Positions 1 through 19,886 of a stretch of 51,977 bases of DNA are shown piece by piece. The notes beneath the pieces are model-generated. The model had not been told where the DNA came from and did not search any database. It was given only the letters and a program-made list of their open reading frames with translations. The number at the start of each line of letters is the position of its first letter. The stretch's first letter is position 1. The translations under genes and the position numbers were made by a program. The DNA lies in assembly GCA_007119035.1 (NCBI GenBank), contig SKQL01000075.1:1-51977 (forward strand), in the 5' to 3' direction. This DNA is from Nitriliruptorales bacterium (lineage in GTDB: Bacteria > Actinomycetota > Nitriliruptoria > Euzebyales > Egibacteraceae).

Positions 1-1478
1 CGGAGGATCCTGAGCTGCTCGCGCTCCTCGGGCGCTTCCCCGAGCGCCTCGACCTCACCACCGCTCAGGTCCTCCCCCTTTGGGTGGACAGGGAGCGGGC
101 GCGCTTCTCCGCGTGGTACGAGATGTTCCCCCGCTCGGAGGGGGCGTCCGCGGAGTCGAGCGGCACGTTCGCAGACGCAGCGCTGCGTCTGCCCGACATA
201 GCAGACATGGGCTTCGACATCGTCTACCTGCCGCCCATCCACCCGATCGGGCACACCGGCCGCAAGGGCGTGGGCGGCCCCCAGGACCTCGACCCCGACC
301 CGAATGCGCCGGGCGTCCCCTGGGCGATCGGCAGCGAGGAGGGTGGCCACACGTCGGTCCATGCCGACCTCGGGACACTCGAGGACTTCGACGCGTTCGT
401 GACTGAGGCCCGGCGCAACGGGCTGGAGGTCGCCCTCGACTATGCCATCCAGTGCTCTCCCGACCATCCCTGGGTGACCGAGCACCCCGAGTGGTTCGAG
501 CAGCGCCCCGACGGCAGCATCGCCTACGCGGAGAACCCCCCGAAGAAGTACCAGGACATCTACCCGCTGAACTTCGAGACCCCCGACCTCGAGGGGCTGC
601 AGAGCGAGCTCAAGCGGGTCCTGGACTTCTGGATCGGGCGGGGCATCCGCACCTTCCGGGTGGACAACCCCCACACCAAGGCGCTCCCGTTCTGGGAGTG
701 GGTCATCACCGAGCTGCGCAAGGAGCACCCTGACCTGATCTTCCTCGCGGAGGCCTTCACCCGGCCGAAGATGATGCAGACGCTCGCGAAGATCGGATTC
801 AACCAGAGCTACACGTACTTCGCGTGGCGCAACACCAAGGAGGAGCTGACCTCCTACGTCGTCGAGCTCTCCCACGGCGAGATGGCCAACTACTACCGAC
901 CGAACTTCTGGCCGAACACCCCCGACATCCTGACCGAGTTCCTCCAGACGGGCGGGCGGCCCGCGTTCAAGCTCCGCCTCGTGCTCGCGGCCCTGCTGTC
1001 GCCCTCCTACGGCATCTACTCAGGCTACGAGTTGATCGAGAACCGTCCCCTCCAGGCGGGGTCCGAGGAGTACTTCGAGTCGGAGAAGTACCGGTACCGC
1101 CCCCGCGACTGGGGGCGCGAGGACTCGCTCGCGCCGTACATCACCCGGGTCAACCGCATACGTCGGGGGGAGCCCGCCTTCCGGGAGCTCACCAACATCT
1201 GGTTCCACGAGCTCGACAACCCAAATCTGCTGTGTTTCTCGAAGGTCGGCCCCGAACGGACCTCGCCCGTCCTCGTCGTTGTGAACCTCGACCCGCACAG
1301 CCCGCACGAAGGCGTCACCAACCTGGACCTGTGGCAGCTCGGCCTCGAGGGAGCGGGCCCGATCGAGGCGCACGACCTCATGACGGGCACCACCCACATC
1401 TGGCACGGCGCGAGCAACTACGTCCGCCTCGACCCCCACGTCGAGCCTTCGCACGTCCTCAGGCTGCGAAGCCTCTAG
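1..1478 (+). CDS. glgE: GlgE, alpha-1,4-glucan:maltose-1-phosphate maltosyltransferase (5'-truncated by window edge)
   Basis: GlgE transfers maltosyl units from alpha-maltose-1-phosphate to the non-reducing end of alpha-1,4-glucan (GH13_3). The reading frame is open from base 3 to the TAG at 1476-1478, so the true start lies outside the window; the GTG at 84 in the ORF track is internal. About 491 codons are visible, against about 650-700 for the family, so the N-terminal domain is missing. Visible signatures include 'YLPPIHPIGHTGRKG', the nucleophile Asp in 'FRVDNPHTK', the acid/base Glu in 'FLAEAFTRP' and the third catalytic Asp in 'NTPDILTEFLQ'. It heads a same-strand series with treS, mak and glgB, which supply and use its substrate. 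Assignment is by family signatures and context and is very secure. Confidence 0.97.
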   Translation, partial: EDPELLALLGRFPERLDLTTAQVLPLWVDRERARFSAWYEMFPRSEGASAESSGTFADAALRLPDIADMGFDIVYLPPIHPIGHTGRKGVGGPQDLDPDPNAPGVPWAIGSEEGGHTSVHADLGTLEDFDAFVTEARRNGLEVALDYAIQCSPDHPWVTEHPEWFEQRPDGSIAYAENPPKKYQDIYPLNFETPDLEGLQSELKRVLDFWIGRGIRTFRVDNPHTKALPFWEWVITELRKEHPDLIFLAEAFTRPKMMQTLAKIGFNQSYTYFAWRNTKEELTSYVVELSHGEMANYYRPNFWPNTPDILTEFLQTGGRPAFKLRLVLAALLSPSYGIYSGYELIENRPLQAGSEEYFESEKYRYRPRDWGREDSLAPYITRVNRIRRGEPAFRELTNIWFHELDNPNLLCFSKVGPERTSPVLVVVNLDPHSPHEGVTNLDLWQLGLEGAGPIEAHDLMTGTTHIWHGASNYVRLDPHVEPSHVLRLRSL

Positions 1479-1489
1479 GAGGAGCGTCC

Positions 1490-3136
1490 TTGAACCTGAC
1501 GCCGGACCCCCACTGGTACAAGACGGCGATCTTCTACGAGGTGCTGATCCGCGGATTCTACGACTCCGACAACAACGGGACGGGTGACATCCGGGGGCTC
1601 ATCGAGCGGCTCGACTACCTGCAATGGCTGGGCATCGACTGCCTGTGGCTGCTGCCGTTCTACGACTCCCCCCTCCGCGACGGCGGCTACGACATCTCCG
1701 ACTACTCGTCCGTCCTCCCCGAGTACGGGACCACCGAGGACATCGCGGACCTCCTCGAGGCCGCGCACGCCCGTGGCATGCGGGTGATCGCGGACCTCGT
1801 CATGAACCACACCTCAGACGAGCACGAGTGGTTCCAGGAGTCGCGGAGGCCCGGCTCACCCAGGCGGGACTGGTACGTGTGGTCCGACAGCGATCAGCGC
1901 TACGGGGAGGCGCGGATCATCTTCGTGGACACGGAGTCCTCGAACTGGACGTGGGATCCCGAGGCCAAGGCCTACTACTGGCACCGCTTCTTCAGCCACC
2001 AACCCGACCTCAACTTCGACAACCCCGAGGTTCGGGAGGAGATGCTCAACGTGGTGCGCTTCTGGCTCGACCTGGGTCTCGATGGGTTCCGCCTGGACGC
2101 GGTGCCCTACCTCTTCGAGCGCGAGGGCACGGACTGCGAGAACCTGCCCGAGACTCACGAGTACCTGAAGCAGGTGCGAAAGGTCGTCGATGACGAGTTC
2201 GAGGACAAGGTGCTCCTCGCGGAGGCCAACCAATGGCCCGAGGACGTCGTCGACTACTTCGGCGACGGGGACGAGTGCCAGATGGCCTTCCACTTCCCCG
2301 TCATGCCCCGGATGTTCATGGCCGTGCGCCGGGAGGAGGCGCGGCCCATCACCGAGATCATGGAGTCCACCCCCCAGATCCCCGACAACTGCCAGTGGGG
2401 GATCTTCCTCCGCAACCACGACGAGCTCACCCTCGAGATGGTCACCGATGAAGAGCGTGACTACATGTACAAGGAGTACGCCGCAGACCCGCGGATGAAG
2501 TCCAACGTCGGCATCCGACGGCGCCTCGCCCCGCTGCTCGACAACTCCCGCCGCCAGGTCGAGCTCTTCCACGCCCTCCTGTTCACGCTGCCCGGCTCCC
2601 CCGTCATGTACTACGGGGACGAGATCGGGATGGGTGACAACATCTTCCTTGGTGACCGCGACGGGGTCCGGACGCCGATGCAGTGGTCGTCCGACCGCAA
2701 TGCGGGCTTCAGCCGAGCGGAGTTCCCCGAACTGTACCTCCCGCCCTTGCTCGACCAGGTGTACGGCTACCCGGTCATCAACGTGGAGTCGCAGCAGAAG
2801 CACCCGAACTCACAGCTGCACTGGATACGCAACCTCGTCCACGTCCGCAAGGAGCATCCTGTGTTCGGCACAGGCAGCTTCGAGGCCCTGAAGCCCTCGA
2901 ACAGCAAGGTGCTGGCCTTCCTCCGTAGAAGCGAAGACGACGTCGTCCTCGTCGTCACGAACCTCGCCGCGAGCGCCCAGCCCGTCGAGCTCGAGCTCGA
3001 GGAGTTCCAGGGCAAGACGCCGATCGAGCTACTCGGAGGCACGTACTTCCCCCGCATCGGCGAGTTGCCCTACCTCCTCACCATGGGACCGTACGGCTTC
3101 TATTGGTTTGACCTGGCCGACGTGGAGTACTACTAG
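1490..3136 (+). CDS. treS: TreS, trehalose synthase / maltose isomerase
   Basis: TreS (GH13_16) interconverts trehalose and maltose and here feeds maltose to Mak. The ORF track starts at 824, inside glgE, but homology begins at 'NLTPDPHWYKTAIFYEVL'. I place the start at TTG 1490, which has a strong AGGAGGAG at 1478-1485 and gives 548 residues, normal for TreS. The (beta/alpha)8 catalytic residues are visible: nucleophile Asp about 203 ('GFRLDAVPY'), Glu about 245 ('LLAEANQWP') and Asp about 311 ('FLRNHDELT'). The motif 'LLPFYDSPLRDGGYDI' is typical of TreS rather than generic alpha-glucosidases. The gap to glgE is 11 nt and to mak 6 nt, indicating one operon. It is not fused to Mak, unlike some actinobacterial TreS-Pep2 proteins. 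Confidence 0.97.
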   Translation: MNLTPDPHWYKTAIFYEVLIRGFYDSDNNGTGDIRGLIERLDYLQWLGIDCLWLLPFYDSPLRDGGYDISDYSSVLPEYGTTEDIADLLEAAHARGMRVIADLVMNHTSDEHEWFQESRRPGSPRRDWYVWSDSDQRYGEARIIFVDTESSNWTWDPEAKAYYWHRFFSHQPDLNFDNPEVREEMLNVVRFWLDLGLDGFRLDAVPYLFEREGTDCENLPETHEYLKQVRKVVDDEFEDKVLLAEANQWPEDVVDYFGDGDECQMAFHFPVMPRMFMAVRREEARPITEIMESTPQIPDNCQWGIFLRNHDELTLEMVTDEERDYMYKEYAADPRMKSNVGIRRRLAPLLDNSRRQVELFHALLFTLPGSPVMYYGDEIGMGDNIFLGDRDGVRTPMQWSSDRNAGFSRAEFPELYLPPLLDQVYGYPVINVESQQKHPNSQLHWIRNLVHVRKEHPVFGTGSFEALKPSNSKVLAFLRRSEDDVVLVVTNLAASAQPVELELEEFQGKTPIELLGGTYFPRIGELPYLLTMGPYGFYWFDLADVEYY

Positions 3137-3142: not shown

Positions 3143-4495
3143 ATGACAGACGACGAGCTCGCCGCCCAGCTGGTCGAGTGGCTGCCCACGCGACGCTGGT
3201 ACCAGGGCAAGGACCGGACCATCGCGAGCGTCTCCGTCGTGGACCGCAGCGACCTGCCGGGGGGCCTCGTGCTGCTCGTCGTCGGTGTCGGCTACGAGGA
3301 CGGGGGCGCCGACCGCTACTTCCTGCCTGTGACCGCCGAGGAGCAGGGGCCGTTGCGCTTCGGGGGCCGACGCTTCATGGATGCGCTCGCGAGCCCCGAG
3401 GCCGTCCGGCTGATCGCTGACCTGGCCTGTTCGTCCACCGCGACACCGACCCGCGCGGGTGGGCGGCTCGAGGGACGCCCCGTGACGGGTGACCGCCCCC
3501 GGCCCGCCCTGCCCGTGCGCAGCCTCGGCGTCGAGCAATCCAACAGCTCCGCGGTGCTGGGGGACGAGTGGATCCTCAAGGTCCTTCGTCGCCTGGAGCC
3601 CGGCACGCACCCCGACATCGAGCTCACCGCCGCGCTCACCGCCGAGGGGTTCCCGAACGTTCCCGCGCAGCTGGGGTCGCTGCACGTGGTCGAGGAGGAC
3701 GAGCCGACGGCCCTGGCGGTGCTCTCCGAGTTCGCCTCAGGAGCCCGGGAGGGATGGGAGCTCGCGACCGCGGAGACAGCGGAGCCAACCGCCGCCGGCC
3801 CCCTGCTGGGCGCCCTCACCGCTCTCGGCACGGCCGTCGCGCGAATGCACCTCACGTTGGCGCGTGTGCTCGGCAGCCGGGGGGCGGCCGCTGCAGATAC
3901 CCAGGGCTGGGCCCACGCCATGTGGAGCCAGGCGGAGCGGGTCCTGTCGGCCGCGCGGGCACGTGCGCCCGAGGCGACCGTGGCACTGCGTGACCGCGCT
4001 GACGAGATTCGCGAGCGGTTCGAGGAGGTCGACGACCTCAGCGACGCGGGCATGCTCGTCCGCGTGCATGGCGACCTCCACCTCGGGCAGGTCATGCTCG
4101 ACACGGATGGACGCTGGCTGCTGCTCGACTTCGAGGGGGAGCCCGTCCGACCGCTACCGGAGCGACGCGCGGCTTCGTCACCCCTACGGGACGTGGCGGG
4201 CATGCTCCGCTCGTTCGACTACGCTGCGGCGGAACCGCACGGGGAGGAGATCCCGCATGAAGCCGTCACCTGGCGCGACGCTGCCCGCGAACGCTTCCTC
4301 GAGGGTTACGCTCAGACGGGCAACCCGTTGTTGCCCGAGCCCGTGTCGCGAGCGCTCCTGCTCGATGCGTTCGAGCTCGACAAGGCGGTCTACGAGCTCG
4401 GCTACGAGCTCAGTAACCGTCCGCGTTGGGTGCCGATCCCCGTACGGGGGATCCTGAGATTGCTCGACTCCTCGACTGCTGGAGGTAGCACATGA
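3143..4495 (+). CDS. mak: Mak (Pep2), maltokinase
   Basis: Maltokinase phosphorylates maltose with ATP to give alpha-maltose-1-phosphate, the GlgE substrate. The 450-residue protein has the N-terminal cap typical of Mak ('WLPTRRWYQGKDR', where most orthologues have a similar RWF/YxxK sequence). The C-terminal aminoglycoside-phosphotransferase-like lobe carries the catalytic loop 'VRVHGDLHLGQVM' and the metal-binding 'LLLDFEGEP'. The start is ATG 3143, six bases after the treS stop. Its end overlaps the glgB start by 4 nt (ATGA), so translational coupling is likely. Family and context agree; the order treS-mak-glgB beside glgE is the classic GlgE-pathway arrangement. Confidence 0.96.
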   Translation: MTDDELAAQLVEWLPTRRWYQGKDRTIASVSVVDRSDLPGGLVLLVVGVGYEDGGADRYFLPVTAEEQGPLRFGGRRFMDALASPEAVRLIADLACSSTATPTRAGGRLEGRPVTGDRPRPALPVRSLGVEQSNSSAVLGDEWILKVLRRLEPGTHPDIELTAALTAEGFPNVPAQLGSLHVVEEDEPTALAVLSEFASGAREGWELATAETAEPTAAGPLLGALTALGTAVARMHLTLARVLGSRGAAAADTQGWAHAMWSQAERVLSAARARAPEATVALRDRADEIRERFEEVDDLSDAGMLVRVHGDLHLGQVMLDTDGRWLLLDFEGEPVRPLPERRAASSPLRDVAGMLRSFDYAAAEPHGEEIPHEAVTWRDAARERFLEGYAQTGNPLLPEPVSRALLLDAFELDKAVYELGYELSNRPRWVPIPVRGILRLLDSSTAGGST

Positions 4496-6666
4496 CCTGG
4501 CGCGCAGACCAAGACGACGTCGCACGCCTGAAGGCAGGGACGCATTCCGACCCGCACGCGGTGCTCGGCATGCACGAGACCAGCGACGGCGCGGTCGTCC
4601 GCAGCTATCGCCCGGGAGCGGACGCCGTCGACGTCGTGCTGGACGGAGGCAGTGTCGTCCGCGGCGCGCTCACCGACGCCGAGGGCTTCTTCGAGGCGCG
4701 CATCGACAAGCCGGTCGCGCCGACCAGTTACCACCTGCGGGTCACGTACCCGGACGGCAACACGTTCGACCTGCGGGACGCGTACGCGTTCTGGCCGACG
4801 TTGGGAGAGATCGACCTGCACCTCGCGGGGGAAGGGCGTCATGAGGAGCTGTGGCGACGGCTGGGCGCACATCTCCGAACGGTCGACGAGCAGGAGGGAA
4901 CTTCTTTTGCGGTATGGGCGCCCAACGCGAGGGGCGTGCGCATCGTGGGCGACTTCAACAGCTGGGACGGCAGGTTGCACCCGATGCGCCTCCTCGGAGG
5001 CTCCGGCGTCTGGGAGCTGTTCGTCCCCGAGCTCGGGGAGGGCACGCGCTACAAGTTCGAGATGGTCACCGCGGACGGCCATCTCGCGCTCCGCAGCGAC
5101 CCGTATGCCTTCCACGCGGAGGTGCCGCCGGGAAACGCGAGCATCGTGTTCCGCTCGGAGTACCAATGGGGCGATGACGAGTGGTTCGAGCGCCGCCGGC
5201 ATGCCGAGCATGTCCGTGACCCGATGTCGGTGTACGAGATGCACCTCGGCTCCTGGCGTTCCGCCAACGGTCGCGCGCTCTCGTACCGGGAGCTGGCGGC
5301 CGCGCTCGCAGACCATGTTCATGACCTCGGGTTCACCCACGTCGAGTTCCTCCCCGCCGCCGAGCATCCGTTCGGCGGCTCCTGGGGCTACCAGGTGACC
5401 GGGCAGTTCGCGCCCACCTCACGTTTCGGTGACCCCGACGACTTCCGCTTCATGGTCGACTACCTGCACCAGCGAGGCATCGGCGTCATCGTGGACTGGG
5501 TGCCCGCCCATTTCCCCAAGGACGAGTTCGCGCTCGCCCGATTCGATGGCACCGCCCTCTACGAGCACGAGGACCCCCGTCAGGCCGAGCACCCCGACTG
5601 GGGCACGCTCGTGTTCAACTACGGGCGCAACGAGGTCCGGAACTTCCTGCTCGCGAGCGCGCTGTTCTGGGTCGAGGAGCTTCATATCGACGGTCTCCGA
5701 GTGGACGCCGTCGCGTCGATGCTCTACCTCGACTACTCGCGTTCCGAGGGGCAGTGGCTCGCCAACGAGTACGGCGGCAACGAGAACATCGAGGCCATCG
5801 AGTTCCTCCGGTCCTTGAACTCCACCGTCTACGGCCGCAACCCCGGTGTCATGACCATCGCGGAGGAATCGACGGCCTGGCCCGGGGTGTCGCGGCCCGC
5901 GCACCTCGGTGGCCTCGGCTTCGGGTTCAAGTGGAACATGGGATGGATGCACGACACCCTCGAATACTTCTCCTACGACCCCGTCCACCGCAGCCACCAT
6001 CACCACGAGCTGACCTTCGGGCTGCTCTACGCCTTCAGCGAGAACTACGTGCTGCCCCTGTCCCACGACGAGGTGGTGCACGGCAAGCGCAGCCTGATCG
6101 ACAAGATGCCCGGCGACCGCTGGCAGAAGTTCGCGAACCTGCGGGCGCTCTACGCCTATATGTGGGCGCAGCCGGGCAAGCAACTGCTGTTCATGGGTCA
6201 GGAGTTCGGCCAGTGGAGGGAGTGGTCCGAGGAGCGCCAACTGGACTGGCATCTACTCGACGAACCCGACCATGCGGGCCTGATGCGCCTCGTGGGCGAC
6301 CTCAACGCCCGTTACCGGGAGCAGCCGTCCTTGTGGCAACTCGACACCGACCCCGAGGGGTTCGGGTGGATCGAGGCCAACGCCGCGAACGAGAACATCA
6401 TCATCTTCTCGCGGTGGGACTCGAGCGGGGACCCGCTCGTGTGCGCAGCCAACCTCTCCCCCGTGGTGCGGGAGGGGATCCGGGTCGGCCTGCCGCGGAC
6501 GGGCCTGTGGCGAGAAGCGATCAACACCGACGCGGGAATCTACGGCGGCTCGAACGTGGGCAACCTCGGCCGGGTCGAGGCGAGTGCGGAGCCCTGGCAG
6601 GACCAACGGGCCTCCACCCGGATGACCCTCCCCCCCTTGGGGACGATCTGGTTGGTTCCCGACTAG
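4492..6666 (+). CDS. glgB: GlgB, 1,4-alpha-glucan branching enzyme
   Basis: GlgB introduces alpha-1,6 branches into the linear glucan made by GlgE. The 724-residue protein has two N-terminal beta-sandwich (CBM48-like) regions, including 'DPHAVLGMHE' and 'FAVWAPNARGVRIVGDFNSWDG', then the GH13_9 barrel and a C-terminal beta domain. Catalytic residues are visible in 'DGLRVDAVASMLYLDYSR' (nucleophile Asp), 'MTIAEESTAWPGVS' (Glu) and 'LPLSHDEVVHGK' (Asp). The start is ATG 4492, overlapping the mak stop, with GGAGG upstream. The TAG stop (6664-6666) directly abuts the stop of convergent proS, leaving no intergenic base. It is the last gene of the glgE-treS-mak-glgB unit. Confidence 0.97.
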   Translation: MTWRADQDDVARLKAGTHSDPHAVLGMHETSDGAVVRSYRPGADAVDVVLDGGSVVRGALTDAEGFFEARIDKPVAPTSYHLRVTYPDGNTFDLRDAYAFWPTLGEIDLHLAGEGRHEELWRRLGAHLRTVDEQEGTSFAVWAPNARGVRIVGDFNSWDGRLHPMRLLGGSGVWELFVPELGEGTRYKFEMVTADGHLALRSDPYAFHAEVPPGNASIVFRSEYQWGDDEWFERRRHAEHVRDPMSVYEMHLGSWRSANGRALSYRELAAALADHVHDLGFTHVEFLPAAEHPFGGSWGYQVTGQFAPTSRFGDPDDFRFMVDYLHQRGIGVIVDWVPAHFPKDEFALARFDGTALYEHEDPRQAEHPDWGTLVFNYGRNEVRNFLLASALFWVEELHIDGLRVDAVASMLYLDYSRSEGQWLANEYGGNENIEAIEFLRSLNSTVYGRNPGVMTIAEESTAWPGVSRPAHLGGLGFGFKWNMGWMHDTLEYFSYDPVHRSHHHHELTFGLLYAFSENYVLPLSHDEVVHGKRSLIDKMPGDRWQKFANLRALYAYMWAQPGKQLLFMGQEFGQWREWSEERQLDWHLLDEPDHAGLMRLVGDLNARYREQPSLWQLDTDPEGFGWIEANAANENIIIFSRWDSSGDPLVCAANLSPVVREGIRVGLPRTGLWREAINTDAGIYGGSNVGNLGRVEASAEPWQDQRASTRMTLPPLGTIWLVPD

Positions 6667-8355
6667 CTAGACGCTGAGCTCTGCGACAGCCTCGCCGAGC
6701 GGGAGCTCGTCACGCTGCCCCGAGGCACGGAGCTTGCGCTCCACGACGCCACGGGCCAGGCCCTTGCCGCCGACGATCAGCTGCGTCGGCATGCCGAGCA
6801 GGTCCGCGTCCGCGAACTTCACCCCGGGTGAGACGTCGCGGTCGTCGTAGAGCACGTCCACGCCCGCGTGACGCAACTGCTCGTACAACTCCTCGGCCGC
6901 GGCGGCGACCTCCTCGTTGCGCCCAGCGCCGAGTGAGAGGAGATGCACCGCGTACGGAGCCACCGCGGCAGGCCACACGAGGCCGTCCTCGTCGTGGTGC
7001 GTCTCCGCGACCACGGCCATGAGCCGACCCACGCCGATGCCGTAGCAGCCCATCCAGCAGACCTGCTCGTTACCGTCCGCGTCGACATAGGTCGCGCCCG
7101 GGGTGCCGGCCGAGTACACGGTCCCGAGCTGGAAAGTGTGGCCGGCCTCGACGGCCTGCACGATATCGAGCGCACCCTCGCACCTCGGGCAGGGGTCCCC
7201 CGGCGCGACGGTGGCGATCGAACGCCATTCGTCGACCGTGAAATCGCGGTCGAGGGTGGCGCCGGTCACATGGTGCTCGAACTCGTTCGCTCCCGTCACC
7301 CAGGGCCCGCCTGCACGCACGAGTGGGTCGGCAACGACCCGCACACCGTGCTCCTGCAGCCCCATGGGGCCGATGTAGCCCTTCACGAGATCGGGGTGCG
7401 CGGTGAAGTCCTCGTCCTCGAACGGGCGCAGTCCTCCCTCCAGGCGCACCTGTCGGTCACCGGGGACGAGCAGTGCCACCGGCTCCCCCGAGGTGTCGAC
7501 GGCCGCGATGCACTTGAGCATCCGGTCGGCGGTGAGGCCGCGTTCCGAGAAGTGCTCCACGACAAGGTCTATGCCGGGGGCGTCGGGGGTGTGGTGGGCG
7601 ACGAGCTCCTCGGGCGCGCCCGCTGTCGGCTTCCTCGGCTCCCCCGCCTCCGCAGCCTCGAGGTTGGCCGCATACCCGCACATCTCGCATGAGGCGAAAT
7701 GGTCCTCGCCGATCGGGCTCGGCACCATGAACTCGTGGTTGACGTCGCCGCCGATGGCTCCGGCGAGCGCCTCGACGGGCGTGTAGGGCAGGTCGCATCG
7801 GTCGAATATCCGGCAGTACGCGTCGTAGAAGCGCTTGTAGGTCTCCCGCATCCCCTCGGGATCCGCATCGAACGAGTACGCGTCCTTCATCACGAACTCA
7901 CGGGTGCGCAGGAGGCCGAACCGGGGCCGCGCCTCGTCCCGGAACTTCGTCTGGATCTGGTACACGAGCTGCGGCAGGTCCCGGTAGCTGTCGATCTCAC
8001 CGTCGACGAGGGCGGTCACGACCTCCTCGTGGGTCGGCCCTAGGAGGAACTTCCCTCCCCGTGACTCCACGCGGAGGAGTATCTCGTCCATGGCCTGCGC
8101 ACGGCCGCTGGCCTCCCACAGGTCCTCGGGATGGAGCGCAGGCATGGACAGCTCCTGGGCCCCAATGCCGTCGAGCTCGTCCCGCAGCACCGTCTCGATC
8201 CTCCGCGCGGCACGGAGGCCGAGGGGGAGATAGCTGTACACCCCCGACGAGAGGCGTCGCAGGTAGCCCGCGCGAGCGAGGAGGCGGTGGCTGACCGCCT
8301 CCGCGTCGCCCGGCGCCTCGCGAAGGGTTTGCAGCAGCATGTTGGAGACGCGCAT
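6667..8355 (-). CDS. proS: ProS, prolyl-tRNA synthetase (bacterial type with editing insertion)
   Basis: ProRS charges tRNA-Pro with proline. From ATG 8355 the protein has 562 residues and starts 'MRVSNMLLQTLREAPGDAEAVSHRLL', the usual start of bacterial ProRS; the ORF track runs further upstream into treZ. Class II motif 2 is visible as 'RPRFGLLRTREFVMKDAYSF'. The insertion (editing) domain lies in the middle of the protein, followed by motif 3 around 'YGIGVGRLMAVVAE' and a C-terminal anticodon-binding domain. A TATGCT hexamer (8363-8368, minus sense) lies exactly 7 nt before this ATG and no Shine-Dalgarno is present, which favours leaderless initiation. It is the only housekeeping translation gene in the trehalose region and is divergent from treZ by 18 bp. 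Confidence 0.96.
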   Translation of the reverse strand: MRVSNMLLQTLREAPGDAEAVSHRLLARAGYLRRLSSGVYSYLPLGLRAARRIETVLRDELDGIGAQELSMPALHPEDLWEASGRAQAMDEILLRVESRGGKFLLGPTHEEVVTALVDGEIDSYRDLPQLVYQIQTKFRDEARPRFGLLRTREFVMKDAYSFDADPEGMRETYKRFYDAYCRIFDRCDLPYTPVEALAGAIGGDVNHEFMVPSPIGEDHFASCEMCGYAANLEAAEAGEPRKPTAGAPEELVAHHTPDAPGIDLVVEHFSERGLTADRMLKCIAAVDTSGEPVALLVPGDRQVRLEGGLRPFEDEDFTAHPDLVKGYIGPMGLQEHGVRVVADPLVRAGGPWVTGANEFEHHVTGATLDRDFTVDEWRSIATVAPGDPCPRCEGALDIVQAVEAGHTFQLGTVYSAGTPGATYVDADGNEQVCWMGCYGIGVGRLMAVVAETHHDEDGLVWPAAVAPYAVHLLSLGAGRNEEVAAAAEELYEQLRHAGVDVLYDDRDVSPGVKFADADLLGMPTQLIVGGKGLARGVVERKLRASGQRDELPLGEAVAELSV

Positions 8356-8362
8356 ATAGGGC

Positions 8363-8368
8363 AGCATA
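8363..8368 (-). promoter_or_regulatory. -10 box (TATGCT) of a probable leaderless proS promoter
   Basis: The minus strand reads TATGCT, 7 nt, then ATG at 8355. This is the actinobacterial TANNNT -10 element at the spacing expected when transcription starts on the initiation codon. It lies in the 18-bp gap between the divergent proS and treZ starts, so the -35 region would fall inside treZ. Inferred from pattern only. Confidence 0.5.
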
Positions 8369-8373
8369 GTGCC

Positions 8374-10191
8374 ATGCCGACGACACCGCGCCACGGTCCC
8401 GCACTCCACGACGACGGCACGGCGACCTATCGCATCTGGGCGCCCCGTGCAGAGCGGGTCGAGTTGCTCACCGACGGCCAACGGACGGAGATGAGCCCCG
8501 GGCCACGGGACTGGTGGACGATGCGTGCCCCCGCACTCTCCGGGCAGCGGTACGCCTACAGCCTCGACGGCGACGACCCGCTGCCTGACCCCGCTTCACG
8601 CCATCAGCCCGACGGTGTGCACGGCTCGTCCGCCATCGTCGACGCGAGACTATTCGAATGGTCGCCGGGAGAGGCCACCTGGCGCCCCGCGCCGCTGGCC
8701 GCCGCGGCCATCTACGAGCTGCATATCGGGACGTTCACCCCCGAGGGGACCCTGTCCGCCGCCCACGTCCACCTCGAGGACCTCGCCGAGCTCGGCGTCA
8801 CCCACGTCGAGGTGATGCCCGTCGCCGCGTTCAACGGCACCCACGGGTGGGGTTATGACGGCGTCGCGTGGTACGCCGTCCACGAGCCGTACGGCGGCCC
8901 TTCCGAGTTCGTGCGCTTCGTCGACGCCTGCCACCGCGCGGGCCTCGCGGTGATCCTCGACGTGGTCTACAACCATCTCGGCCCGAGCGGCAACTACCTT
9001 CCCCACTTCGGGCCCTACCTGACCCACCACTACGAGACACCGTGGGGCGAGGCGCTCAACCTCGACGGAGCCGGCTCCGACGAGGTTCGCGCGTTCATCG
9101 TGGACAACGCCCTGATGTGGCTCGAGGAATACCACGTCGACGGGCTGCGCCTCGACGCGGTACATGGCCTGGTGGACACGTCCGCACAACACATCCTCGC
9201 TGCCCTGACCGATGCGGTCCGTGGCCTCGAGAGCCGGGTCGCACGTGGGCTGCAGCTCATCGCGGAGTCGGACCGCCAGGACCCTGCCACCGTCACGTCC
9301 CGCGCCGCGGGAGGACACGGGCTCGACGCCCAGTGGCTCGACGACTTGCACCACGGGCTCCACGTCGCGGTGACCAACGAGGCGGAGGGCTACTACGCCG
9401 ATTACAACGGCCTGGTCGACGTCGCCGCCGCATACGAGCGGGGTTTCGTGTACGACGGCCGCTACTCCGTGGTCAGAGGGCGGACGGTCGGCGCGCCGTT
9501 GGGTGACGTGCCCAGCGACCGTCTCGTCGCATGCGTGCAGAACCACGACCAGGTCGGCAATCGCCCGCACGGTGACCGGTTGACGACGCTCACCGACCCG
9601 GAGCGCCTCCGGGTGCTGATCACGCTCCTCTGCAGCGCGCCGACCGTGCCCATGCTCTTCATGGGCGAGGAGTACGGGGAGACGAGGCCGTTCCTGTTCT
9701 TCTCGAGCCATCCGGAGCCCGAGCTCGCCGCCGCGGTCAGCACCGGGCGTCGCGCGGAGTTCGGTGACTTCTCGGGATTCACCGGAGAGGTGCCCGATCC
9801 CCAGGACGAGGCCACGTTCCGCGCGAGCGTGCTCGACCACAGGGAGGCGAGCACCCCGGGGGGTCGGGCTCGATGGGCGCTGTGGAAGGACCTCCTCGCC
9901 CTGCGTCGGGCCGAGCCGGCCCTCGCGACCGGGCGCCGTGAGCTCCTCGATGTAGCCCACGCCGACGACCACAGCCTCGCGGTCCGACGAAACCACCCAA
10001 AGGGACGCGCGGTTCTCGTGCTCGCCAATCTCGCCGACGAGCCCGTCACCTTCGAAGCGGGCCCCGGGCCATGGACGCCGATCTGGTCGAGCGAGAGCGT
10101 CCGCTACGGCGGGCGGGGCGAGGGCCCGATGCCCCGCCAGGGACGCGTCACCGTGCCCTCCCGCAGCGCCGCACTGCTCGGAGGACACTGA
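8374..10191 (+). CDS. treZ: TreZ, malto-oligosyltrehalose trehalohydrolase
   Basis: TreZ (GH13_10) hydrolyses the alpha-1,4 bond next to the trehalosyl end made by TreY, releasing trehalose. The start is ATG 8374 ('MPTTPRHGPALHDDGTATYRIWAP'), giving 605 residues; the longer ORF from 8131 runs antisense through proS. An N-terminal E-set domain precedes the barrel. Catalytic residues lie in 'DGLRLDAVHGLVD' (Asp), 'LIAESDRQDP' (Glu) and 'CVQNHDQVGNRPHGDRL' (Asp). The last motif and 'EYGETRPFLFFSSHP' are typical of TreZ and separate it from GlgB. No convincing ribosome-binding site precedes the start. The partner genes treY and treX lie 2.4 kb downstream on the opposite strand, separated by the GH57 gene. 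Confidence 0.96.
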   Translation: MPTTPRHGPALHDDGTATYRIWAPRAERVELLTDGQRTEMSPGPRDWWTMRAPALSGQRYAYSLDGDDPLPDPASRHQPDGVHGSSAIVDARLFEWSPGEATWRPAPLAAAAIYELHIGTFTPEGTLSAAHVHLEDLAELGVTHVEVMPVAAFNGTHGWGYDGVAWYAVHEPYGGPSEFVRFVDACHRAGLAVILDVVYNHLGPSGNYLPHFGPYLTHHYETPWGEALNLDGAGSDEVRAFIVDNALMWLEEYHVDGLRLDAVHGLVDTSAQHILAALTDAVRGLESRVARGLQLIAESDRQDPATVTSRAAGGHGLDAQWLDDLHHGLHVAVTNEAEGYYADYNGLVDVAAAYERGFVYDGRYSVVRGRTVGAPLGDVPSDRLVACVQNHDQVGNRPHGDRLTTLTDPERLRVLITLLCSAPTVPMLFMGEEYGETRPFLFFSSHPEPELAAAVSTGRRAEFGDFSGFTGEVPDPQDEATFRASVLDHREASTPGGRARWALWKDLLALRRAEPALATGRRELLDVAHADDHSLAVRRNHPKGRAVLVLANLADEPVTFEAGPGPWTPIWSSESVRYGGRGEGPMPRQGRVTVPSRSAALLGGH

Positions 10192-10208: not shown

Positions 10209-10214
10209 TACAAT
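10209..10214 (+). promoter_or_regulatory. -10 box (TACAAT) of a probable leaderless promoter for the GH57 gene
   Basis: TACAAT is followed by 6 nt and the GTG start at 10221, with no Shine-Dalgarno. This is the standard actinobacterial leaderless layout. A possible -35 (CTGACA, 10188-10193) sits at a short 15-nt spacing. The promoter implies that the GH57 gene can be transcribed independently of treZ. Confidence 0.65.
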
Positions 10215-10220: not shown

Positions 10221-12596
10221 GTGCAACCCTTCGTACTACACACGCATTTCTATCAACCTGAGCGGGCCAACCCGTGGACTCAGGCGCTCGACCCGGAACA
10301 GGGCGCGGCCCCCTTCCGCGACTGGAACGAGCGCATCCACGAGGAGTCGTATCGCGCCAACGCGTTCGCCCGCATCTACGACGCCGAGGGCCGCGTCGAG
10401 CGCATCGTCAACACCTACGAGCATGTCTCGTTCAACTTCGGGCCCACCCTGCTCGCGTGGATGGAGCGCACGCATCCGGCGACGTACGCGAGGGTCCTCG
10501 AAGCGGACCGTCGCAGCCTCGTCCGCACCGGGCACGGCAATGCCCTTGCGCAGGCCTTCCACCACACGATCCTGCCGCTCGACACGGAGCGCAATCGCCG
10601 GACTCAGGTCCGCTGGGGCGTCCTCGATTTCCGTCACCGTTTCGGTCGTGAGCCGGAGGGCATGTGGCTGCCGGAGGCCGCGGTGAGCCAGCCCGTGGTC
10701 GACACCCTGATCGACGAGGGCATCGTCTTCACCGTCCTCGCCCCACGACAGGTCGGCCGCGTTCGCGAGATCGGCGGCCAATGGCGCGCCCTGGATGGCG
10801 ACCCGGATACCACACGGCCGTACCTGATCAGGCACTCCGACGGCTCCGGCCGCAGGCTCGGTGTCTTCCTCTACGACGGGGATCTCGCGCAGCGATTCGC
10901 CTTCGACCCGGAGACGATGGACTCGGGCGTCATGGTCGATGCGCTTTGCACCGCGGCTAGCTCGGGACTCGTGCACGCCGCGATGGACGGTGAGACCTTC
11001 GGGCACCACCACCGGTTCGGCGAGCTGGGCCTCGCCTACACGCTCGCGGAAGCGGGGCCCCGCCGCGGCCTCGAGCCGACCAACTACGGCTCGTACCTCG
11101 CCGCGTGCCCTCCCACCGACGAGGTCGAGCTCGTCGAGGGTGAGGGAAGCTCGTGGAGCTGCGCCCACGGCGTCGGCCGTTGGGTGCGCGACTGCGGCTG
11201 CTCGACCGACGCGCAGCCGGGATGGGACCAGGAGTGGCGGGGACCGCTCCGGGAAGCGCTCGACCTCGTTGCCGAGCTCACCGACACCGCCTTCCAGGAG
11301 CGGGGCCGCAAACTCCTCGTGGACCCATGGGGCGCCCGGGACGCCTATGTGGAGGTCCTAGTGGGAGCGGTGCCCCCAGCGCAGTTCCTCGCCGACCACG
11401 CGAGGGGGGAGCTCTCCACGCGGGAGGAGTCGGAGGTGTGGTCGCTGCTCGAGGCGCAGCGCAACGCCATGGCGATGTACACGAGTTGCGGCTGGTTCTT
11501 CGCAGACGTCTCGGGGATCGAGACCGTCTACGTCATGCGCTTCGCCGCACGCGCATGCGATCTGTTGGCGGGCCTCGGCGTGGACGCGCCCCGCGAGGCG
11601 GTCCTCGCCCGCCTGAGCGACGCGCGCAGCAACCGCCCCGAGATCGGCTCGGGGGCGGACGTCTGGCGGGACCAGGTGGAGCCCTACGCGGTCTCCCCCG
11701 AGCGGATCGCCGCGCAGACCGCGCTCTGCGCGGTCGCGGGCCTCGACCCCATGACCGGTGCGGAGGGCCACGACGTAGTGCTGACGGATTCCCGGCGTCT
11801 CGAGTTGGCGGGCACCACCCTCACGGCCGCGACGGTGCACGTCACCCCGCGCGCGACCGGCAGGACCGAGGCCTTCACCGTGGCGGGTTGCGGCCTCCAT
11901 GACCTTGATCTGCACGCCCGGGCGGTGCGAGGCACGAGCCCCTCACCCGACGAGCTGCTCGCCACGCTGCGGCAGACCTCACCGCATACGTTGCTGACCG
12001 AGCTCGACCTACGCCTCGGGGGTCACGCGTACACGCTCGACGACGCGCTTCCCTCGGGCCGGATGGAGATCGTCGCGCTCGCACGGGAACGCATCGCGCG
12101 GTCCCTGCGCCAGGACCTCGGTGAGGTCGCCGACCGCTATGAGGGGCCGCTCGAGGCCCTTCATGCGGCAGGCGCACCGCTGGCACCCGAGGCCCGGATG
12201 ATCCGGCAAGCCCGGCTCGCCGGCGGGGTCGAGGAGGCGATCGCGCTGCTTCGCACCGCGCCCGAGGCTGTCCTGGACCGCCTCCCAGCGCTGCGGGAGG
12301 CCCGGGATGTGGGGCACCCCAGCGACTTCGAGCGTCTGCGAAAGGCCTTGAGCGAGGCGATCGCTGAGGCAACCGCCGAGGCCACGACCAGCCACAGCGA
12401 CCGGACGGTCGAGCGCGTAGAGCGTCTCGCGGCTGTCACCGGGGACCTCGGGTGCGGCGTCGACCTCTCCCGTGCCCAGGAGCAGGCCTACGCCTTCGCC
12501 ATACGCGCCCGGGACGAGGAGCTGTCGCACTGCGCAACCGCGGCGAGGCTCGGTGAGGCGCTGGGCCTCGCCCCGAGCTGCTGGGGCGGGAGCTGA
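10221..12596 (+). CDS. GH57-family glycoside hydrolase/transferase with DUF3536-like C-terminal region
   Basis: This 791-residue protein has an N-terminal GH57 domain and a long C-terminal region resembling the DUF3536 group. Visible GH57 motifs are 'LHTHFYQP' (residues 6-13), 'GMWLPEAAV' with probable nucleophile Glu152, and 'MDGETFGHHHR' with probable acid/base Asp256. GH57 enzymes act on alpha-glucans as amylases, 4-alpha-glucanotransferases or branching enzymes, with a catalytic Glu/Asp pair. The substrate of this subgroup is not known to me. The start is GTG 10221, supported by a leaderless promoter. It sits between treZ and the treY/treX operon, so an alpha-glucan trimming or transfer role is the natural inference. 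The C-terminal third is rich in Ala, Arg and Glu and contains no motif I recognise. Confidence 0.88.
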   Translation: MQPFVLHTHFYQPERANPWTQALDPEQGAAPFRDWNERIHEESYRANAFARIYDAEGRVERIVNTYEHVSFNFGPTLLAWMERTHPATYARVLEADRRSLVRTGHGNALAQAFHHTILPLDTERNRRTQVRWGVLDFRHRFGREPEGMWLPEAAVSQPVVDTLIDEGIVFTVLAPRQVGRVREIGGQWRALDGDPDTTRPYLIRHSDGSGRRLGVFLYDGDLAQRFAFDPETMDSGVMVDALCTAASSGLVHAAMDGETFGHHHRFGELGLAYTLAEAGPRRGLEPTNYGSYLAACPPTDEVELVEGEGSSWSCAHGVGRWVRDCGCSTDAQPGWDQEWRGPLREALDLVAELTDTAFQERGRKLLVDPWGARDAYVEVLVGAVPPAQFLADHARGELSTREESEVWSLLEAQRNAMAMYTSCGWFFADVSGIETVYVMRFAARACDLLAGLGVDAPREAVLARLSDARSNRPEIGSGADVWRDQVEPYAVSPERIAAQTALCAVAGLDPMTGAEGHDVVLTDSRRLELAGTTLTAATVHVTPRATGRTEAFTVAGCGLHDLDLHARAVRGTSPSPDELLATLRQTSPHTLLTELDLRLGGHAYTLDDALPSGRMEIVALARERIARSLRQDLGEVADRYEGPLEALHAAGAPLAPEARMIRQARLAGGVEEAIALLRTAPEAVLDRLPALREARDVGHPSDFERLRKALSEAIAEATAEATTSHSDRTVERVERLAAVTGDLGCGVDLSRAQEQAYAFAIRARDEELSHCATAARLGEALGLAPSCWGGS

Positions 12597-12624: not shown

Positions 12625-15245
12625 TCAGCCCGAGGGGGTGAGCAACGCCACGGGCAGGATGGCGAGCACGTCGCTCAGCGGAAGGCGGTCACCTGCGTGC
12701 TCGAGTCCCGTCAGTCGATCCCTCCAGGACCCCGTCACGGATTCGGGGATCACGACGGTGGTATCGCCCCACGCCCCCCCGATGGGCAACCCACCCGCGG
12801 CGTTGATGACGCGTCCCGGTAGCCGGGGGGCCACGGTGATGGGCCCCCGTGACCCGTCCGGAGCCGTCCGCGCGAACGCGACCACGTTCGGGGCCAAGCG
12901 ACCCTCCACCGCGAGCGGCACGTACCGGCCGCCCGGCCCGTACGCCTCTGCGGAGCTCTGCCGCTCACGCAGGGCGCGCGAGAGGACCCACAGCTTCAGC
13001 CGTCCGTCGTGACGCCCCTCCAGGAGATCCGCGGGCGGGCTCCTGTCGATGTCGTCGAGGGCAGCCTGTCGACGCTGGAAGTCCACGGGACGCCGGTTGT
13101 CGGGATCGACGAGGGAATCGTCCCAGAACTCGTTGCCCTGATAGGTGTCGGGCACGCCGGGTGAGGTCATGCGCAACAGTGCCTGCGCCGCGCCGGAGGC
13201 GATCGCGATCTCGGTGACGTCCGCGCAGAGGCTTCCCGCCTCGTCGAGGAAGGCACCGCTGCGGGAGCGGTCGAGGATGGCCTCAACGAATCCCACGAGC
13301 GCGTTCTCGTAGTCGGGGTCGGGGTCCGCATGCGTGGTCCGCTCCCCCGCCTCCCGCGCAGCCTTGATCGTGTAGTCGATGAGCCGGCGGGTGACGTGCT
13401 CGTCGGGGTCGGAGCCGTCCGGAGGCCATACACCGACGAGGCTCTGGTAGATGAGAAGCTCCGCGGCCGGATCGGGAGCGGGACCGGAGCGCGTCCCGAC
13501 CACCCACCCGGCGTTGTGCTCCCGCCACGCGCCGGCTGCGGCGGGCCAGCGTGCTCCCAGCTCCGTGAGCGCCGCGATCCGCAACCGGACGTCCTCGCCA
13601 CGCTTGGTGTCATGGGTGGCGGTCGTCAACATCCCTGCGGGGTGGCGTGAGGCGCGCTCAGCGTTGCGGGCGTGAAACTCCCCCGCCTCCATTCCGAGTT
13701 GGTCCGGGTCACCGCCGACCTCGTTGACGGCCAGCAGGCGGTGGTGGCGGTACAGCGCGGTGTCCTCGATCCCCTTTGCCTCGAGTGCGCTCGACAGCTG
13801 CTGGAAGCGGGCGATCACCTCGAGGTGCTCGTCGTCGCCGCCAGCTCGTCCGCTGAGCACGCGGTTGGTGAAGTCGTAGAGGAAGGCAGGCGCACGGGCG
13901 TGTGTGCCGTCAGGCATCCTCGAGGCCGCTCGCGTGACCGCCGTCTCGAGGCGCTGCACGTCCTCGGGGCGTGCCTTCCCCGTCTCGGGATCCACGTACG
14001 TGCGGTACACCTCGAGCGCGCAGGCGATGCGCCCGAGGACCTCCCGACATTGATCGAACGTGACGTCGCGCACCGCCCGATGCCGCTGGGCGACTGCCCA
14101 CAGGCGGGCGGCGAGGCGATCGGCGTCTGCGGAGAGCTCGGTCTCCAGCGCCTCCGCCTTCGCGGCCGCGGCCACCGCGACGAACGGCTCGCCGCTGCCG
14201 CCGAACAGTAGGTCGACCTCCTCGAGGGAGGAGCGTGCGTCCCCGTCGACGAACAACCCGAGCACGTCGTTGGCGAACTCGTAGCCCGTCGTGCCCGCGA
14301 CCTTCCAGTCGGGCAGCGCCTCACCCGGTGCGGTGATCTTCTCCGCAACCGTCCACACCCTGTGGGAGGCATCCGCCAACCGCTCGAAGTAGCGCGCGGG
14401 ATCGCGGAGCCCGTCGGGGTGGTCGATGCGCAACCCGTCCAGCACGCCGTCCTCGACGAGCTCCAAGATCTTGCGGTGCGTGTGGTCGAACACGTCACCG
14501 TCCTCGACCCGAACCGCTGCCAACTCGTCGATCGAGAAGAAGCGACGGTAGTTCACGAGGTCCCCGCCCGCACGCCACCACACGAGGCGGTAGTGCTGCG
14601 CATCGAGGAGCTCGTGCAGACGGTCCCAGCTCGCGGGCTCGCCTGGCTCCCCCTTGTATGCGTGGAGCCCGCCCGCCCTCGACACGGCGTCCGCACTCTC
14701 GTCCGACAGGGGGAAGGAGTGCTCGTGGTAGCGCACCCGGAGCTCCCCCTCGTCCACGAGGTCGAGCTCCCCCGCGTGCAAGACCTCGCCGTACACCCCT
14801 CCGAGGACGGGCAGGATCACCTTGCCGGCGGACGATGGGAGCGCGGGCTCCCAGTCGACGTCGAAGAACGATGCGGCATGCCCCTGCGGGCCCTCCCGAA
14901 GCAGGGCCTGCCAAAGCGGGTTCGCCGGGCCTGCGCCCACATGGTTGGGCACCAGGTCCGCGATCAGGCCGAGTCCCGAGGCATGGGCCACGTCCGCGAG
15001 TGCCCGCAGGCCCTCCTCACCACCCAGCTCCCCCCGGACTGCGGTGGGGTCGACCACGTCGTAGCCGTGAGAGCTGCCCGGCTGTGCCTCGAGCACCGGG
15101 GAGCAGTACACATGTGTCACACCCAGTTGGGAGAGGTAGCCGACCAGGCCCGCCGCATCCGCGAAGCCGAGAGCGCCTGGCTCCAATTGGAGGCGATAGG
15201 TCGCGAGGACGGGACGGGCAGAGCGTGCCGCGCGCACGCCCTCGC

Positions 15246-15249
<4 letters not shown>
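12625..15249 (-). CDS. treY: TreY, malto-oligosyltrehalose synthase
   Basis: TreY (GH13_26) converts the reducing-end alpha-1,4 linkage of malto-oligosaccharides into an alpha,alpha-1,1 linkage. The 874-residue protein begins its catalytic core with '[25 protein letters not shown]', a TreY hallmark, followed by '[23 protein letters not shown]'. Catalytic residues lie in '[14 protein letters not shown]' (Asp), '[15 protein letters not shown]' (Glu) and '[14 protein letters not shown]' (Asp). Its ATG (15249) overlaps the treX stop by 4 nt, so the pair is a translationally coupled operon. It converges with the GH57 gene, with 28 bp between stops. Confidence 0.97.
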
Positions 15250-17369
<2,120 letters not shown>

Positions 17370-17483: not shown

Positions 17484-18743
17484 ATGACGCCTGAGGCACC
17501 TGCTCCCAACCGCAGCTGGCGTCAACCAGCGGTTCTGACCGCGGCGCTGCTGTCGGTGGCCGCCGGGTTCGCCCAGTTCGGCCCGGCTGCCGCACTCGCC
17601 GACGTGGCCGCGGAGTTCGGCGATGTCGCGGTGGACCCGGAGACGGTGGAGCAGTTGGCTCTCTCGGGGACGGTCATCGGCATCGGGCTCAGCATCATCC
17701 GCTTCGCCTCCCTGGGGAGCCTCGCCATCGCGGGGGCGGCAGACGTGTTCGGTCGGCGCCGGGTGCTGCTGTTCTCCTGTGCGGCGGGGCTCATGCTCAC
17801 CGCCCTGACCGCACTCAGTCCCTCCTACTGGGCATTCGTTGCGATCTTCGCGCTCGGTCGCCCCTTCCTCTCCGCTACCAATGCGGTAGCGGGGGTGACC
17901 GCTGCGGAGTACACGGATACGAAGAACCGCGCGGCCGCGATCGTTCTCATCGCCACCGGCTATGCGATCGGCACGGGCATCACGCTGATCGCACGCTGGG
18001 CCGGGGGCGAGGGCCTGGGCTTCCGTGGGTTGTTCGGCCTCGCCATCGTCCCTGTGCTGCTGCTGCCGTTCGCGGCGCGCAAGCTCCGGGAGACCCGGTA
18101 CTTCACGGAACTCCCCGCCGAGCAGCGCCCCGCGGCCCTCGGACGGGTACCGCGCCCGTGGGTCCCCCGCTTGCTGCTGCTCTGCGTGCTCACGTCGGGC
18201 ATAGGGCTCATCACGGGACCCGCGAACACGTATGTGTTCATCTACGGCGAGCAGTACCTCGGCCTGTCCATCGGAGCGTTGACGCTCGCGGGTCTCTCGA
18301 CCGGCCCGTTGGGGCTCGTCGGGCTGCTCCTCGGCCGGTGGGGGGCTGACCGCCTGGGTCGTCGCGTGAGCGCGGCCCTCGCCATGGTGGTGGCCGGGGC
18401 GGGCGGCATACTGCTCTACAGCGGTCCGGTGGAGGCCTTGCTCGCGGGGTACCTGCTCACCATCGCGGGGCAGGCGGCCTACGCTGCGCCGGCGGGCGCA
18501 CTCGACGCGGAGCTCTTCCGCACCTCGTTCCGAGCGACGGTGGCAGGCTGGCTCACCGTGGCGGGCGTCCTCGGTGCGTCACTGGGGCTGCTGGCCTTCG
18601 GGTTCCTGTGGGACCAGGTCGGGCCCGCGACCACCGCCTGGCTGTTGTTCACCCCGGCTGCGCTCGCCGGGCCTCTGTACTTCCTGTTGCCCGAGACGCG
18701 AGGGCGTGAGCTCGAGGACGACGAAGTCGCCGGGCGCCCCTAG
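17484..18743 (+). CDS. MFS transporter, sugar-porter-like
   Basis: This is a 419-residue integral membrane protein with about 12 hydrophobic segments. It carries MFS loop motifs 'GAADVFGRRRVLLF' (between TM2 and TM3) and 'GRWGADRLGRRVS' (the equivalent loop of the second half). It ends with 'LPETRGRELED', close to the PETKG-type motif of sugar porters, so a sugar or related small-molecule substrate is possible. The position beside the trehalose cluster is suggestive but not proof. The start is ATG 17484; a TAATCT hexamer directly abuts it, so the exact start or promoter is uncertain. Its last 4 bases overlap the convergent GGDEF gene. Confidence 0.85.
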   Translation: MTPEAPAPNRSWRQPAVLTAALLSVAAGFAQFGPAAALADVAAEFGDVAVDPETVEQLALSGTVIGIGLSIIRFASLGSLAIAGAADVFGRRRVLLFSCAAGLMLTALTALSPSYWAFVAIFALGRPFLSATNAVAGVTAAEYTDTKNRAAAIVLIATGYAIGTGITLIARWAGGEGLGFRGLFGLAIVPVLLLPFAARKLRETRYFTELPAEQRPAALGRVPRPWVPRLLLLCVLTSGIGLITGPANTYVFIYGEQYLGLSIGALTLAGLSTGPLGLVGLLLGRWGADRLGRRVSAALAMVVAGAGGILLYSGPVEALLAGYLLTIAGQAAYAAPAGALDAELFRTSFRATVAGWLTVAGVLGASLGLLAFGFLWDQVGPATTAWLLFTPAALAGPLYFLLPETRGRELEDDEVAGRP

Positions 18744-19855
18744 CCCCGCGGGCTGCTCGTGACCCGCGAGGCCGAGCGTACGGGGGCCCCGCTCCGCATC
18801 GGCACTCCTGAGTCGCCGAGGCGGACACACGTGGCCACACCACCGTCGGCGCGGTCTAGGGCCTCCCGGGCATCGGGGAGCAACCGCCCCGGCTCGGTCC
18901 TCCCTCCGCCCGAGTCCCAGACCAGGCCGACGCGGCCATGCGCCCGAACCTCTCCTCCCGTGACCGCGACCGGGCCGCTCAGCGCACCCAGTGCCCGCTG
19001 CGCCACCGCAACGGCGGCGTCGAGGTCCGCGACATCGCCGAGCAGGACCCCGAACACCTCCGGGTCGATCCGCGCGAGCTCGTCGTCGGAGCGCAGGCAG
19101 CGCTCGAGGCGTCGCGCACCGATGCGCAGGACCTCCTCGCCTGATCGCCAGCCGAGGTCGCGACCCACCGTCTCCACCCCGTCGAGTGCCACGAGCAGAA
19201 GCGCGAGAGGCCCGTCACCGGAACGACACCTGCGTTCGAGGGCGCTCATGAAGCCGCCCGGGCTCGCGAGCCCTGTGAGGCTGTCGATCGCGCCGCTGTC
19301 TCGCGAGGGGGAGGGCATGCGTGCGGTCACCGGATGCTTCCGCCACTCCCGTGAGGCACCGAGTTGCCCCGCGAATACCTCGACCACGGCGCGTGCGGGC
19401 TCCTCGTCGCAGCTCGTGGGCGGGCCTGCGACCAAGACCACGACCCCGGGTCCGGCGACGACCGGACAGGCGATGAGCCGACGTCCATCCGAGCCGACGG
19501 CCAGCGCACCATCGTGCGCTCGCACCGTCTCGGCCGCGGTGGCCATCTCGCGCTCCACGGGAGCGACGTCGCCTGTGCGCGCATAGGGTTGCCACTGCTC
19601 CGCAGGCTCGTCGTAGACGAGCAATCGCGGCTGCGTGAAGCCCCACTGCCGCAGGCCCTCCTCGATGATCGAGGGGGCATCGGCGGCATCGAGCGAGACC
19701 TGATGACTCAAGTGCCCGATGCGCTCAAGCCAGGTGCCGAGAGCGTCGGCCCGTTGCTCGGCCACCTTGCCGGCCCACGTGAGCCGAGCGAGCGCGACCG
19801 CGAGGAGGACGATCGTGAGGCCCCCCGCAGCCAGCGCGAACTCCTGCCAGCCCAT
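18740..19855 (-). CDS. Membrane-anchored protein with degenerate GGDEF domain
   Basis: This 371-residue protein has one N-terminal transmembrane helix ('LAAGGLTIVLLAVALARL'), a GAF-like middle region (about 60-180) and a C-terminal GGDEF-family domain starting at 'DSLTGLASPGGFMSAL'. The signature that should read R-x-GGDEF is 'RIDPEVFGVLL', so GGDEF is replaced by DPEVF. GGDEF domains make cyclic-di-GMP and need these residues for GTP and metal binding, so this one is probably catalytically inactive and may act as a sensor or effector. The start is ATG 19855 with GGGAG 4 nt upstream; the TTG at 19858 is the track alternative. It is divergent from the PimB'-like gene and no EAL partner is nearby. 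Confidence 0.82.
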   Translation of the reverse strand: MGWQEFALAAGGLTIVLLAVALARLTWAGKVAEQRADALGTWLERIGHLSHQVSLDAADAPSIIEEGLRQWGFTQPRLLVYDEPAEQWQPYARTGDVAPVEREMATAAETVRAHDGALAVGSDGRRLIACPVVAGPGVVVLVAGPPTSCDEEPARAVVEVFAGQLGASREWRKHPVTARMPSPSRDSGAIDSLTGLASPGGFMSALERRCRSGDGPLALLLVALDGVETVGRDLGWRSGEEVLRIGARRLERCLRSDDELARIDPEVFGVLLGDVADLDAAVAVAQRALGALSGPVAVTGGEVRAHGRVGLVWDSGGGRTEPGRLLPDAREALDRADGGVATCVRLGDSGVPMRSGAPVRSASRVTSSPRG

Positions 19856-19886
19856 CAATCTCCCAGTCTCCGCGACAGCGCGTCAG

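Follow-up and report, generated by a model that had tools for sequence, protein, structure and literature searches.

A DUF3536-containing GH57 enzyme beside glycogen and trehalose genes in Actinomycetota probably trims GlgB-branched glucan and may carry a four-cysteine metal site

We analyzed one whole contig of a metagenome-assembled genome from Actinomycetota (69% complete, 1.9 Mb); this stretch of 51,977 nucleotides is called the window below. The genes run in the order glgE, treS, mak, glgB, proS (minus strand), treZ, a GH57-DUF3536 enzyme gene, treY, treX/glgX, and an MFS gene (Table 1). The earlier note had placed the GH57-DUF3536 enzyme between treZ and treYX within a GlgE-plus-TreXYZ locus. 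We found that the open reading frame, the Pfam matches, and the neighboring genes agree with this placement and that the locus genes are present, with glgE incomplete at the contig end. The GH57-DUF3536 gene starts with GTG, encodes 791 amino acids, and has a GC content of 71% (GC3, 87.5%); treY and treX run convergently to it. No RNA element was found when we looked for one near this gene. The listed open reading frames of treZ and treS start too far upstream, overlapping proS and glgE, respectively, and their true starts lie further downstream. A GGDEF-domain gene (positions 18740 to 19858) lies near the trehalose/glycogen cluster, convergent with the MFS transporter gene.

Table 1. Coordinates of genes, protein segments, and the putative start signal in the window
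Feature	Position	Strand	Remarks
glgE	3..1478	+	GLGE_C match; frame open to contig start, 5' end lost
treS, trehalose synthase	824..3136	+	Gene order matches other loci
mak, maltokinase	3143..4495	+
glgB, GH13_9 branching enzyme	4492..6666	+
treZ, GH13 malto-oligosyltrehalose trehalohydrolase	8131..10191	+	Upstream neighbor of GH57-DUF3536
TACAAT, -10-like element, putative leaderless start signal	10209..10214	+	Ends 6 nt before GTG
GH57-DUF3536 enzyme gene	10221..12596	+
CSR-1, HTHFY, residues 7-11	10239..10253	+	H7, H9, and Y11 invariant
CSR-3, WLPEAA, predicted nucleophile Glu152	10665..10682	+	Alignment and conservation
CSR-4, AMDGETFGHH, predicted acid/base Asp256	10980..11009	+	Alignment and conservation
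WSCxHGxxRWxxDCGC segment, residues 312-327	11154..11201	+	Trp312 corresponds to TK1436 Trp407; Cys314, His316, Cys325, and Cys327 invariant
DUF3536 domain (PF12055)	11223..12044	+	Pfam match
CSR-5, MYTSCGWFF, residues 419-427	11475..11501	+	Invariant Cys423; FF ending is the "non-specified amylase" fingerprint
treY, malto-oligosyltrehalose synthase	12625..15249	-	TIGR02401, 841 bits
treX/glgX, debranching enzyme	15246..17369	-	TIGR02100, 1024 bits

Pfam matched GH57 (PF03065) to residues 66 to 268 (E value, 2e-15) and DUF3536 to residues 335 to 608 (E value, 9e-63; 212.7 bits against a cutoff of 25). We built an AF2 model from a 54-sequence alignment (mean pLDDT, 93.4; pTM, 0.92) and ran the structure comparison that the earlier note had proposed. 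All the top PDB fold matches are GH57 proteins, and the model has the incomplete (beta/alpha)7 barrel and helical bundle. The first match was the exo-maltose-forming amylase 4CMR (E value, 9e-12; TMt, 0.55), followed by the 4-alpha-glucanotransferase 1K1X and then by GH57 branching enzymes and the Aquifex amylopullulanase. A first, earlier model gave a similar list without 4CMR. In the well-supported model, the barrel and helical bundle are predicted to span residues ~1 to 506, followed by a small beta domain (517 to 570) and a helical extension (576 to 791). The C-terminal ~500 residues had been described as having no recognizable motif. In contrast, we found that they include DUF3536, which in the model appears to comprise the final part of the GH57 catalytic unit, a helical bundle (~340 to 506), together with the small beta domain, with the helical extension after it. 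There is no signal peptide, as the barrel already begins at residue 2. Some natural relatives are only 488 to 530 amino acids long, end after the bundle, and mostly lie beside glgB (loci L027, L029, L053, L064/L101, L106, and L112). Because these relatives stop there, the family can do without the C-terminal 280 residues.

Using HMMER, we found that Glu152 aligns with E183, Asp256 with D354, and Trp312 with Trp407 of TK1436, the GH57 branching enzyme of T. kodakarensis, in which E183 is the established nucleophile and D354 the acid/base. All 95 homologues keep these three residues and the CSR cores unchanged. The positions given beforehand for the two catalytic residues were thus correct. The catalytic residues and the Trp are shared with the branching enzymes TK1436, TT1467, and AmyC, and the spacing of Trp312 and Trp321 matches that of Trp407 and Trp416 of those enzymes. 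Glu152 and Asp256 are ~104 residues apart, compared with 171 in TK1436, ~96 in the Aquifex amylopullulanase (E256/D352), and ~91 in TLGT. With so short a segment between the catalytic residues, the large insertion of true branching enzymes is absent here. Lack of the branching loop in GH57 is associated with greater alpha-1,4-transfer and with little branching (PMC10346327). The branching-enzyme fingerprints are HxHLP and ELF(Y)GHW (PMC11206854). TK1436, TT1467, and AmyC own HxHLP and ELFGHW, whereas the window protein has HTHFY and ETFGHH in their place.

We then compared the protein with the other GH57 groups. The GH57 "non-specified amylases" of Blesak/Janecek and of Martinovicova and Janecek in 2018 average 785 amino acids, are mostly bacterial (152/170), have a CSR-5 that ends in FF, and carry a Ser at logo position 23 that is "almost invariantly conserved" (PMC6037648). 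The window protein is of similar length, keeps both catalytic residues, and has the FF ending, but its residue at logo position 23 is Thr259 rather than Ser, so that it may not be a strict member. Among the homologues, this position is Ser in 61/95 and Thr in 34/95. It is Lys in GH57 4-alpha-glucanotransferases and Ala in maltogenic amylases, whose CSR-5 ends in FW (PMC6037648). The window protein has none of these maltogenic or glucanotransferase features. With the 4-alpha-glucanotransferase of Thermococcus litoralis (1K1W/1K1X) it shares the fold, the catalytic pair, the short inter-catalytic segment, and probably transfer chemistry. The two are ~14% identical, and the window protein differs in lacking the Lys and in having DUF3536 and the C-terminal helices.

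The activity had been called unassigned. In contrast, this group is already catalogued as the "non-specified amylases" (PMC6037648), and a purified DUF3536 GH57 enzyme, PoGH57 from Pontibacter sp. SGAir0037, was assayed by Bax and Jurak in 2024 (PMC11206854). PoGH57 showed weak alpha-1,4-glucan hydrolysis/4-alpha-glucanotransfer on amylose (27.7 mU/mg) and maltooctadecaose and almost no branching (PMC11206854). It raised the amount of DP3 to DP4 chains and, after GlgB action, cut back branches of more than DP6 (PMC11206854). Its authors concluded that it is a 4-alpha-glucanotransferase whose hydrolysis is dominant on the branched product, wavering between hydrolysis and transfer (PMC11206854). 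Its gene cluster includes TreS, GlgE, TreZ, TreY, GH77, and a GH13_9 branching enzyme (PMC11206854). We related PoGH57 to the window protein by family name, two motifs (HxHFY in CSR-1 and ETxGHH in CSR-4), and gene neighbors: both have GH57 and DUF3536, and each has a GH13_9 branching enzyme in its GlgE/TreS/TreZ/TreY cluster. PoGH57 differs in lying in a Bacteroidota PUL with GH77 inside the locus and in having HGHFY and ETYGHH, compared with HTHFY and ETFGHH here. On this comparison, we infer that the window protein would have the same activity and role as PoGH57.

To follow up the proposed co-occurrence check, we surveyed the family and its neighbors. The gene is carried by 17/41 genomes (40 relatives plus the genome of the window), DUF3536 occurs in 29 of the 247 genomes of a phylum sample, and at least 563 relatives, spread over many phyla, turned up when we scanned GTDB species genomes. 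We searched for viral and plasmid homologues and found none. The association with alpha-glucan genes was kept across phyla. We saw the order treZ-GH57-treY repeatedly, in Chloroflexota, Thermodesulfobacteriota, Nitrospirota, and Actinomycetota, and it is frequently preceded by treS-mak-glgB. In 38 of the 78 loci whose flanks were long enough, glgB, treZ, or treY lies within 1.5 kb, and most of the remaining 40 are from Gastranaerophilales and gut/rumen bins, which are over-represented in the list. The earlier note had proposed that homologues scattered without alpha-glucan neighbors would count against it. This is largely not what we saw, but Gastranaerophilales/Melainabacteria homologues (L044, L037, and others) have no glgB, treZ, or treY within 10 kb, and some others lack such neighbors as well. 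The neighbors of the Gastranaerophilales locus L037 include genes for a GT8 glycosyltransferase and for a member of the BadF/BadG ATPase family.

A specific tie to TreXYZ was not borne out. Full TreY, scored above the cutoff, was found in only 17/29 DUF3536 carriers, compared with 60/218 noncarriers (Fisher P = 0.001, with shared ancestry ignored). In contrast, the gene is the immediate neighbor of glgB in 11 of 13 further actinobacterial loci that we inspected; of the other two, one reads glgB-treZ-GH57-treY and the second begins at a contig end. The adjacency to glgB also holds in the inspected actinobacterial loci without TreY. We concluded that the steadiest partner in Actinomycetota is GlgB, not TreXYZ.

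It had also been argued that the enzyme probably does something not covered by GlgB, TreX, and GlgE, such as 4-alpha-glucanotransfer or the processing of a methylated or acylated glucan. We found nothing that points to a modified glucan. MalQ (GH77) is present in the window's own genome, as is a phosphorylase-family match, and MalQ was found in 25/29 DUF3536 carriers, compared with 82/218 noncarriers (Fisher P = 1e-6, again ignoring shared ancestry). Thus, 4-alpha-glucanotransfer by itself leaves no gap to be filled, and since the host already has MalQ, supplying a missing glucanotransferase is not the role of this enzyme. We also considered that it substitutes for or displaces MalQ and ruled this out, because GH77 co-occurs positively with DUF3536. 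In one family (f9; genomes G044, G084, G104, G124, G134, G170, and G179), malQ lies directly downstream, with the order glgB-GH57-malQ where glgB was seen.

We think it probable (roughly 0.6) that the window protein is a retaining GH57 enzyme of the cytoplasm, trimming or redistributing the outer alpha-1,4 chains of GlgB-branched glucan. According to this model, Glu152 would attack the anomeric carbon of an outer-chain alpha-1,4 bond and Asp256 would protonate the leaving group. The glucosyl-enzyme would then be released to water (trimming) or to the 4-OH of another chain (4-alpha-glucanotransfer) and not efficiently to a 6-OH. Acting together with GlgB, it would cut GlgB-made branches back to short chains and so yield a smaller, denser glucan, and the freed malto-oligosaccharides and short chains could be used by TreX/TreY/TreZ and MalQ. 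Several points weigh against a trimming enzyme, namely, the low activity of PoGH57, Thr259, the exo-acting best fold match, the MalQ already in the genome, and the Gastranaerophilales homologues without glycogen/trehalose neighbors within 10 kb.

That best fold match is Py04_0872 of Pyrococcus sp. ST04 (4CMR), and an enzyme of its kind would take maltose off nonreducing ends and pass it through TreS/Mak to GlgE, whose genes share the locus here. We consider a maltose-forming exo-amylase unlikely. Py04_0872 differs from the window protein in lineage and in both maltogenic signatures (FW rather than FF, and Ala rather than Thr at position 23), PoGH57 raised DP3 to DP4 and shortened branches rather than producing maltose alone, and in many carriers with glgB, neither glgE nor mak was detected nearby. 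Slightly less likely still is a dedicated supplier of short linear malto-oligosaccharides to TreY in the trehalose pathway. The recurrence of treZ-GH57-treY in four phyla and the enrichment of TreY among carriers fit such a feeder, but ~40% of the carriers in the phylum have no full TreY, and the inspected ones still have the gene beside glgB. A second, GH57-type branching enzyme that complements GlgB would be consistent with the glgB adjacency and with the fold matches to GH57 branching enzymes. We regard it as improbable, because both fingerprints and the inter-catalytic insertion are absent and the branching activity of PoGH57 is almost nil. Finally, the very low specific activity of PoGH57 could suggest a regulatory or catalytically degenerate glucan-binding protein, but this is very unlikely given catalytic residues and CSR cores that are invariant in all the homologues.

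The trimming enzyme that we favor largely fits a type already known, namely, a GH57 starch/glycogen enzyme widespread among bacteria, and the new part is a putative four-Cys site. Across 95/95 homologues, Cys314, Cys325, Cys327, Cys423, and His316 never vary, and no other Cys column is invariant. Three of the Cys lie in the WSCxHGxxRWxxDCGC segment, which starts at the active-site Trp, and the fourth lies in TSCGWFF within CSR-5. The position that matches Cys314 is Ala409 in TK1436 (alignment to the PDB sequence), and we know of no Cys cluster in the T. litoralis 4-alpha-glucanotransferase. In three sequences of one divergent family (L103, L109, and L111), the fourth Cys is replaced by Asp while the other three stay; we read this Asp as still a possible ligand. 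Residues 308 to 329 were the only stretch below 50 pLDDT in the first model, and in the second model the two Cys loops were still less reliably predicted than much of the core.

This conservation pattern suggests that the four Cys, with His316 nearby, may form an undescribed metal or Fe-S site, and we infer that it would shape or load the active site. Disulfides among these Cys are unlikely, since there is no signal peptide and the pathway is cytoplasmic. A nonexhaustive literature search found no paper on a metal or Fe-S site in GH57, and to our knowledge no GH57 enzyme has such a metal site. The broader proposal, to which we give slightly less than even odds, is that DUF3536 GH57s are metalloenzymes, with zinc or iron-sulfur beside the active-site Trp either ordering the site or making trimming redox or metal sensitive. 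If so, the metal site could account for how little activity purified PoGH57 showed, and its possible absence from that preparation is a concrete reason to revisit the only published assay. If the site is real, many bacteria would have their glycogen remodelling tied to metal or redox status. The gene belongs to a glycogen cluster found in multiple phyla, and its steady partnership with GlgB in Actinomycetota narrows assays to branched substrates and chain trimming.

In the tree, the window's family group (f1; nine rows) and three other actinobacterial sequences form one branch (support, 97/98). Same-class relatives (f4 and f5) join Chloroflexota and Thermodesulfobacteriota in the other large clade. 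Because f1 and f4/f5 sit in separate clades, there are two lineages of the gene within one class, and both are found in glycogen/trehalose loci. This deep split suggests transfer or an old duplication.

The gene had also been credited with its own leaderless promoter. Our sigma-70 scan found no full promoter at the GH57-DUF3536 gene, so we assessed the element by its position relative to the start. TACAAT lies just ahead of the GTG, and TANNNT occurs 6 to 8 nt ahead of the start in 4/10 genes of the same family, whereas the background rate ahead of RTG codons is 0.3% (P ~2e-8). A leaderless start is thus supported by sequence for this gene. Some other genes of the family have a Shine-Dalgarno-like AGGAG or GAGG in place of TANNNT.
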